Source: Alphaproteobacteria bacterium (GTDB lineage Bacteria > Pseudomonadota > Alphaproteobacteria > JACAEB01). From it: DNA of 37,899 nucleotides. The stretch covers positions 1 to 37,899 of the forward strand of contig JACAEB010000155.1 of assembly GCA_013389075.1 (NCBI GenBank), in the 5' to 3' direction. Each line of letters opens with the position of its first letter. The first letter of the stretch is position 1. The notes under the pieces are model-generated. The model saw only the letters and a program-made list of their open reading frames with translations. It ran no database searches and had not been told where the DNA came from. The translations under genes were made by a program, and so were the position numbers. This document shows, piece by piece, positions 26,909-29,002 of the stretch.

Positions 26909-27976
26909 ATGCGCCCCTCGCTTCTCAACCCGCTCTTCCGCCCGATATCGGGCCTGCCCGGCATCGGCCCGCGCCTTGCCAAGCTCTATGCGAAGCTCGT
27001 CCGCCGGCCCTCTGGGGCCCGCGTGCTCGACCTTCTGTTCCATCTGCCCACGGGGCTCATCGACCGGCGCGCGCGGCCCCCCATCGCCGAGCTCGAGGAC
27101 GGCATGATCGCGACGGTTCAGGGCCGCGTCCTCGCCGTCGAGCCGCCGCGCGGACGCATGAGCCCCGCCCGCGTCATCCTGGCCGACCCGACCGGAACGC
27201 TCCAGGTGATCTATTTTCACATGCCGATGGAGGCGGTGGAAAAGCTGTTCCCCCGCGACAGCGATCGTCTCGTCAGCGGGCGGATCGAACTCTATAACGG
27301 CATGCCGCAGATGCCGCATCCGGACCATGTGCTCGCCCCCGAGGCGGCCATGGAGATGCCGGCGATCGAGCCCGTCTATCCGCTCACGGCGGGCCTCACG
27401 CTGAGGGGTCTCACGAAGGCGGCGGCGGCGGCGCTGAGCACGCTCCCGTCCCTTCCGGAATGGCAGGACCGCGCCTGGCTCGCGCAGAGGGGCTGGCCGG
27501 ACTGGGCCCGGGCGATCCGGGCCGCCCATCACCCGGAGGGCGCGGGCGATCTCGACCCGGCGGCGCCGGCGCGGGCCCGTCTCGCCTATGACGAGCTTCT
27601 CGCCAACCAGCTTGCGCTCGCACTGATGCGCGACCGGATGAAGGCGCGCCGGGGCCGCCGGTTCTCCGGACACGGACGGCTCGTCGCGCGCGCGATCGAC
27701 GCGCTGCCCTTCGAGCTCACGGGCGCCCAGCGCCGGGCGGTGGAGGAGATCGGCCGCGATCTCGCCGACGAGACACGCATGATCCGCCTCCTGCAGGGGG
27801 ACGTCGGCTCGGGCAAGACTGTGGTCGCCTTTCTCGCCATGCTGCAGGTGATCGAGGCGGGCGCGCAGGCCGCCCTCATGGCGCCCACGGAAATTCTCGC
27901 CCGCCAGCATCACGCGACCTTCGCGGCGACCGCCGAGGCGCTGGGCCTCGACACGGTCATCCTCACCGGCCGCTAA
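26909..27976 (+). pseudogene. recG: recG 5' part: wedge and first helicase half, ends at in-frame TAA
   Basis: 355 residues to the TAA at 27974-27976. RecG is the branched-DNA translocase that remodels replication forks and Holliday junctions. This part has the N-terminal LPGIGPRLAKLYAKL, the OB wedge (ATVQGRVLAVE to MPHPDHV), FELTGAQRRAVEEI, Walker A LLQGDVGSGKT and motif Ia APTEILARQH. The chain stops at ILTGR, where the family continues with a D/E-K-G. The reading frame carries on unchanged after the stop into the next entry, and both parts together (355 + 1 + 341 codons) equal a full RecG of about 690 residues. GGAGG (26899-26903) fixes the start. It is either a one-base nonsense mutation, a sequencing error, or a truly split gene. 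Confidence 0.85.
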
Positions 27977-27979
27977 ATG
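27974..27979 (+). other. In-frame TAA followed at once by ATG inside recG
   Basis: The bases TAAATG replace the two codons that normally encode Asp/Glu-Lys in RecG. There is no Shine-Dalgarno before the ATG, but a stop directly followed by a start permits reinitiation by the same ribosome. No insertion or deletion is needed to rejoin the frame. Confidence 0.9.
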
Positions 27980-29002
27980 GGGGCCGAACGCGCCCGTGTG
28001 CTCGAGCGGCTCGCGGCGGGGGAGATCCACATCCTCGTCGGGACGCATGCCCTCTTCCAGGAGGACGTCACCTTCCAGGATCTCGGTCTTGCCGTCATCG
28101 ACGAACAGCACCGCTTCGGCGTCGGCCAGCGCCTTGCGCTCGGTGCCAAGGGCGCGGCGGTGGATCTCCTTCTCATGACCGCGACACCCATTCCGCGCAC
28201 CCTGACGCTGACCGTGTACGGAGGGATGCAGGTCTCGCGCATCGACGAGAAGCCCAGGGGCCGCAAGCCGATTGCCACGCGGGCGATCCCGCTCGACCGG
28301 ATCGAGGAGGTGATCGAGGCGGTGAAACGCGCCGTCGCGGGCGGCGGACAGGTCTACTGGGTCTGCCCGCTCGTCGAGGAAAGCGAAAGCGTGGCGGCCG
28401 CCGCCGCGGAGGACCGGCATGCGAGCCTCGCCGGGCTCCTCCCCTTCCCCGTGGGGCTCGTGCACGGACGGTTGCGGCCCTCCGAGAAGGACGCCGTCAT
28501 GGCGGCCTTCAAGGGGGGCGAGGTGAAGGTGCTGGTCGCCACGACGGTGATCGAGGTCGGCGTCGACGTGCCGGCCGCCAACGTCATCATCATCGAGCAT
28601 GCCGAGCGCTTCGGTCTCGCCCAGCTCCACCAGCTGCGCGGACGCGTGGGGCGTGGCGCGGCGGCCTCGAGCTGCATCCTGCTCTACGGGCAGCCTTTGT
28701 CCGACCCCGCCCGCGCCCGCCTCGCCATATTGCGCGAGACCGAGGACGGCTTCCGGATCGCCGAGGAGGATCTGCGCCTGCGCGGGGCGGGCGATCTCCT
28801 CGGCACGCGGCAGAGCGGCTTTCCCGACTTCCGCCTGGCCGACCCCGAGGCCCATTCGGCCCTGCTGGACGCCGCCCATGACGACGCGGCGCTCATCCTC
28901 GCGACCGATCCCGCCCTGACGAAACCCCGCGGGCAGGCGCTGCGTGTGCTGCTCTATCTGATGGAACAGGATGCGGCGGTGCGCTTCCTCGAAGCGGGGT
29001 GA
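27977..29002 (+). pseudogene. recG: recG 3' part: second helicase half and C-terminus
   Basis: 341 residues if started at the ATG at 27977, in the same frame as the 5' part. It holds VGTHALFQEDVTF, the Walker B/DExH motif VIDEQHRFGVGQRLAL, motif III TATPIPRTLTLTVYG, WVCPLVEESE, TVIEVGVDVPAANV, motif VI QLRGRVGRG, and the RecG C-terminal wedge-contact region (GAGDLLGTRQSGFPDF). All helicase motifs are well conserved, with no other stop or frameshift, so decay, if any, is very recent. Expression would need readthrough of TAA or reinitiation, and function would need the two halves to assemble. Confidence 0.85.

Follow-up and report, generated by a model that had tools for sequence, protein, structure and literature searches.

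The recG gene of an alphaproteobacterial draft genome is interrupted by one in-frame TAA. We conclude that this stop codon is most likely no biological feature, with a sequence error as the first explanation and a fresh nonsense mutation as the second. The assembly comprises 2.74 Mb in 237 contigs and is 83.7% complete; the window, by which we mean the whole stretch of 37,899 nucleotides analysed, is its contig 15. Among the genomes compared, none belongs to the same family as the source genome. The locus is made up as follows:

26909..29002, plus strand: recG read through, comprising 697 codons (the internal TAA among them) and then the terminal TGA
26909..27976, plus strand: N part of recG, closed by the TAA, holding the wedge/OB domain and, with motifs as far as APTEILARQH, the first half of helicase domain 1
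27974..27976, plus strand: internal in-frame TAA, at a site that is D or E in relatives (GAC in 26 of 44)
27977..27979, plus strand: second ATG, at a site that is K, R or T in relatives, without an upstream Shine-Dalgarno sequence
27977..29002, plus strand: C part of recG, in which helicase domain 1 is completed (GTHALFQ, DEQH) and is followed by helicase domain 2 and the C-terminal domain

On translation of 26909-29002, codon 356 is the sole internal stop; the ATG follows directly, and the frame is then open to the TGA at 29000-29002. Stop and second start together read TAAATG, with a spacing of 0. The N part (355 amino acids) matches positions 3-362 of the 704-position profile NF008164 and the C part (341 amino acids) matches positions 365-704, and these consecutive matches, together with the translation, bear out the preliminary description, in which two same-frame parts were said to add up to a normal RecG of about 697 codons. 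The parts contain the Pfam domains RecG_wedge, DEAD, Helicase_C and RecG_dom3_C, with the DEAD domain split into 3-77 and 83-164 of a model length of 167. In length, domain order and helicase motifs the read-through protein resembles known RecG (NCBIfam NF008164 / TIGR00643; PDB 1gm5, 9wm0), having the wedge and two helicase domains in RecG order and a full-length model match. It differs from known RecG at codons 356-357, where the TAA breaks what would be one uninterrupted polypeptide and K is changed to M; all 44 aligned relatives are uninterrupted. The cut splits a single RecA-like domain between its motifs Ia and II. When the protein is modelled as read through with AlphaFold2 (mean pLDDT 86), the stop is placed in a predicted loop (353-357) that joins a strand (349-352) to a helix (358-369). 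A strong GGAGG/GAGGAGG Shine-Dalgarno sequence precedes the recG start at 26909, and a search upstream of the ATG at 27977 found none. The assembly holds no second recG, the sole other match being the helicase region of mfd.

The comparison with relatives rests on 44 aligned RecG sequences and on a listing of about 150 RecG matches drawn from 386 genomes of the class. RecG is 52-61% identical to its alphaproteobacterial relatives over its whole length. An internal stop at codon 356 occurs in none of the 44 aligned relatives, which answers in the negative the earlier question of whether the closest relatives share the TAA, and in none of the roughly 150 class matches listed. At the TAA site the 44 relatives have GAC (D) in 26 cases, GAA in 5 and GAG in 1, and their next codon encodes K, R or T, once P, and never M. 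The residues here are D-K-G in 20 relatives, E-K-G in 4 and D-R-G in 3, with similar combinations in the others; the earlier reading of this site as D/E-K-G is right that the first residue is mostly D or E, but the second may also be R or T and is once P. The TAA-ATG needs at least two substitutions relative to the relatives' codons. Since GAC is the codon in most relatives and a further substitution is needed for the M, recG differs by at least two bases, so that the single G-to-T change from GAA that had been proposed is incomplete. Away from the stop, mean RecG identity is 51% and 64% in the two halves, compared with 50-55% and 62-67% in relatives. As both halves are conserved as in relatives, relaxation of selection is not visible on either of them. 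No relative with an intermediate recG state was found among the genomes compared.

The preliminary description saw no other lesion. Within recG this holds, but in the rest of the genome similar single lesions are frequent. Our scan covered about 885 kb, window included, or roughly one third of the genome. It looked for stops with a run of at least 40-50 in-frame codons of coding-type usage both before and after them. Most candidates were ordinary gene ends followed by the next gene, and a stop was counted only if it lay inside a single family match; interrupted genes were called partly by eye, and not blind. Over these ~885 kb, nine genes are each interrupted by just one in-frame stop, the remainder of the frame being intact (7 TAG, 2 TAA, 0 TGA). 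They are given here together with one gene broken by a frameshift:

27974-27976, plus strand: recG, TAA
L082:11309, contig C162, minus strand: MacB/LolD-type ABC ATPase, TAG at a site that is E or Q in relatives
L082:13585, contig C162, minus strand: PMT-type glycosyltransferase, TAA, with relatives aligning across the stop
L083:19828, contig C92, plus strand: ku, TAG at a site that is L in relatives
L085:6139, contig C92, minus strand: M16 zinc protease, TAG at a site that is E in relatives
L096:9519: PilZ-domain protein, TAG
L099:5660: histidine kinase, TAG
L101:11901, contig C160, minus strand: waaA/kdtA, TAG at a variable position
L197:6308, contig C226, plus strand: ntrX, TAG at a conserved E
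L103 about 2350-2380, contig C129, minus strand: gltB (glutamate synthase large chain), single-base frameshift

The waaA/kdtA gene is present as a single copy in the draft and is uninterrupted in 7 of 7 relatives, and at the position of the ntrX stop each of the five structural relatives shown has E. The gltB frame runs for about 1,500 codons and is otherwise intact. On C162, no more than 2.3 kb separates the broken genes for the ABC ATPase and the PMT-type glycosyltransferase, and ku and the M16 zinc protease, with one TAG each, share the 82 kb contig C92. Four codons past its stop, just before GTLFLDE, ntrX has an unusual C for the usual G. A possible tenth broken gene is the long frame of a membrane protein at L200:10701 (minus strand, contig C58), which holds one in-frame TAG; having no family match, it was left out of the count. 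Only in recG does an ATG directly follow the stop.

The same scan of three related genomes (360 kb, 200 kb and 330 kb; ~890 kb) gave no clear case; the control G009 (55% GC) was left out of the count because it offered too few training frames. Nine cases against none over equal lengths have a two-sided probability of ~0.004 if the rates are equal, on calls made by eye and not blind. Isolated lesions elsewhere in this draft are therefore in excess over comparable genomes, as consensus error would have it. A reciprocal tblastn search against control stretches returned mostly antisense and shadow-frame matches; three were judged real in this genome, namely recG, the ABC ATPase and the gltB frameshift, and in the controls none was. 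Genes decayed by several lesions were likewise absent from this test, and because none was found, all the lesions look fresh. Among ABC transporter domain matches in the genome, one of 39 carries an in-frame TAG, and 49 matches to two other families in the same genome contain no in-frame stop.

The kinds of stop codon are those of chance. Given how this genome uses its codons, random substitution is expected to produce TAG, TAA and TGA in proportions of 67:17:16 (%), so that the observed 7:2:0 is unremarkable. About 2.4% of random coding substitutions create a stop under the same codon table, and from this we infer that, with nine stops, roughly 40 bases per 100 kb are wrong or new. We saw no clusters of errors near the stops, where rare codons make up 3.3% within 12 codons as against 4.7% far away. 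Cytosine-deamination damage as the sole cause was ruled out, the NtrX and M16 sites being E in relatives.

Taken together, the data make it probable that the recG TAA is a consensus or assembly error, one of many in a low-quality draft. In a binned metagenome-type assembly of this sort, wrong bases scattered over the contigs would by chance create stop codons, whereas the genes so interrupted would stay intact in the organism itself; at the recG TAA the base itself would be wrong, and the living cell would make an ordinary single-chain RecG. We favour this explanation because the conserved genes of this fragmented draft, a usually essential one included, carry many isolated, fresh-looking lesions that its relatives lack, and because RecG outside the stop is conserved as in relatives, the spectrum is random and no decayed genes were found. 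Four points count against it: two adjacent recG codons are changed, which should be rare for independent errors at ~40 per 100 kb; that density is itself high for a short-read consensus; the lesions of the broken genes are not at contig ends; and the calls of interrupted genes were in part made by eye. The explanation that comes second, possible but distinctly less likely, is a very recent nonsense mutation by which recG was lost in the sampled strain, within a burst of fresh loss-of-function mutations in, for example, a mutator or relaxed lineage. In that case the N part would be a functionless fragment, and the cell would either lack fork reversal or leave it to other helicases. The recG gene is dispensable in several bacteria, ku and the genes for the PilZ protein, the M16 protease and the kinase are also usually dispensable, and single substitutions account for all the nonsense cases, all of which suits such a burst. 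It fits poorly with the breakage of waaA/kdtA, which is essential in most Gram-negatives and is here a single copy, with the lack of older multi-lesion pseudogenes alongside the fresh ones, and with the lack of an intermediate state in any relative among the genomes compared. Sequencing error and fresh nonsense mutation had both been listed among the original options, and both fit a lesion that is unique, in a conserved gene, with similar lesions found elsewhere in this draft but not in the related genomes scanned. Like an ordinary nonsense pseudogene or consensus error, recG has one substitution-type lesion in an otherwise intact frame, unshared and with many counterparts in the assembly; it departs from them in having its stop directly before an ATG.

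That ATG invites the idea of a two-subunit RecG, in which ribosomes terminate at the TAA and reinitiate at the adjoining start and the two chains assemble through helicase domain 1. Overlapping or very closely spaced stop and start codons allow termination-reinitiation, and adjacent ones can couple translation (PMC10666635); the spacing here is 0, the K-to-M change provides the start codon, and a cut at codon 356 could, from its predicted position in a loop, be tolerable. As in translationally coupled pairs (PMC10666635), stop and start are adjacent and point in the same direction. In native coupled pairs, however, the usual arrangement is an overlap of 1 or 4 nt (PMC10666635), whereas recG has a spacing of 0, no Shine-Dalgarno sequence before the ATG at 27977, and two parts that are halves of one conserved domain, cut inside a single RecA-like fold between motifs Ia and II. 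The stop and start do lie within a few nucleotides of each other, but no relative shares the split. The other broken genes lack an adjacent ATG, so a general cause accounts for recG and no selection for a split need be assumed. We consider reinitiation very unlikely, and a real two-subunit RecG with a surface-loop cut between these motifs, in a lineage without close sequenced relatives, scarcely plausible. Equally hard to credit is readthrough or reassignment of TAA and TAG in the lineage, by which full RecG would be made. All nine stops are TAA or TAG and none is TGA, and several of the sites are E or D in relatives; yet 7/2/0 is just what random substitution predicts, and the ku site is L in relatives, so the sites do not stand for one amino acid. 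Moreover, TAG ends 64 and TAA 23 of 425 long frames, so that neither is avoided at gene ends, and none of the 34 tRNAs found in a draft that is only 84% complete, with 16% of the genome missing, reads a stop. A narrower version, recoding of TAA/TAG specifically as Glu (E at the M16, NtrX and ABC sites), was ruled out by the L at the ku site and by the normal genes that end in TAG or TAA. The readthrough and reinitiation options of the preliminary description are thus unsupported, given normal TAA/TAG gene ends, an unshared split, a second start without a Shine-Dalgarno sequence, and no compensating suppressor gene, which it had proposed to look for, among the 34 tRNAs.

With a sequence error as the probable cause, the main value of the recG case is as a warning. 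Many genes in this draft carry a single lesion, and stops, frameshifts and odd residues in it need read support before they are given a biological reading. We found no papers on a split or broken recG in the literature searched. If the split were real, it would, as far as that literature shows, be an undescribed two-chain RecG, and it would test whether a RecA-like motor domain works when cut between motifs Ia and II.
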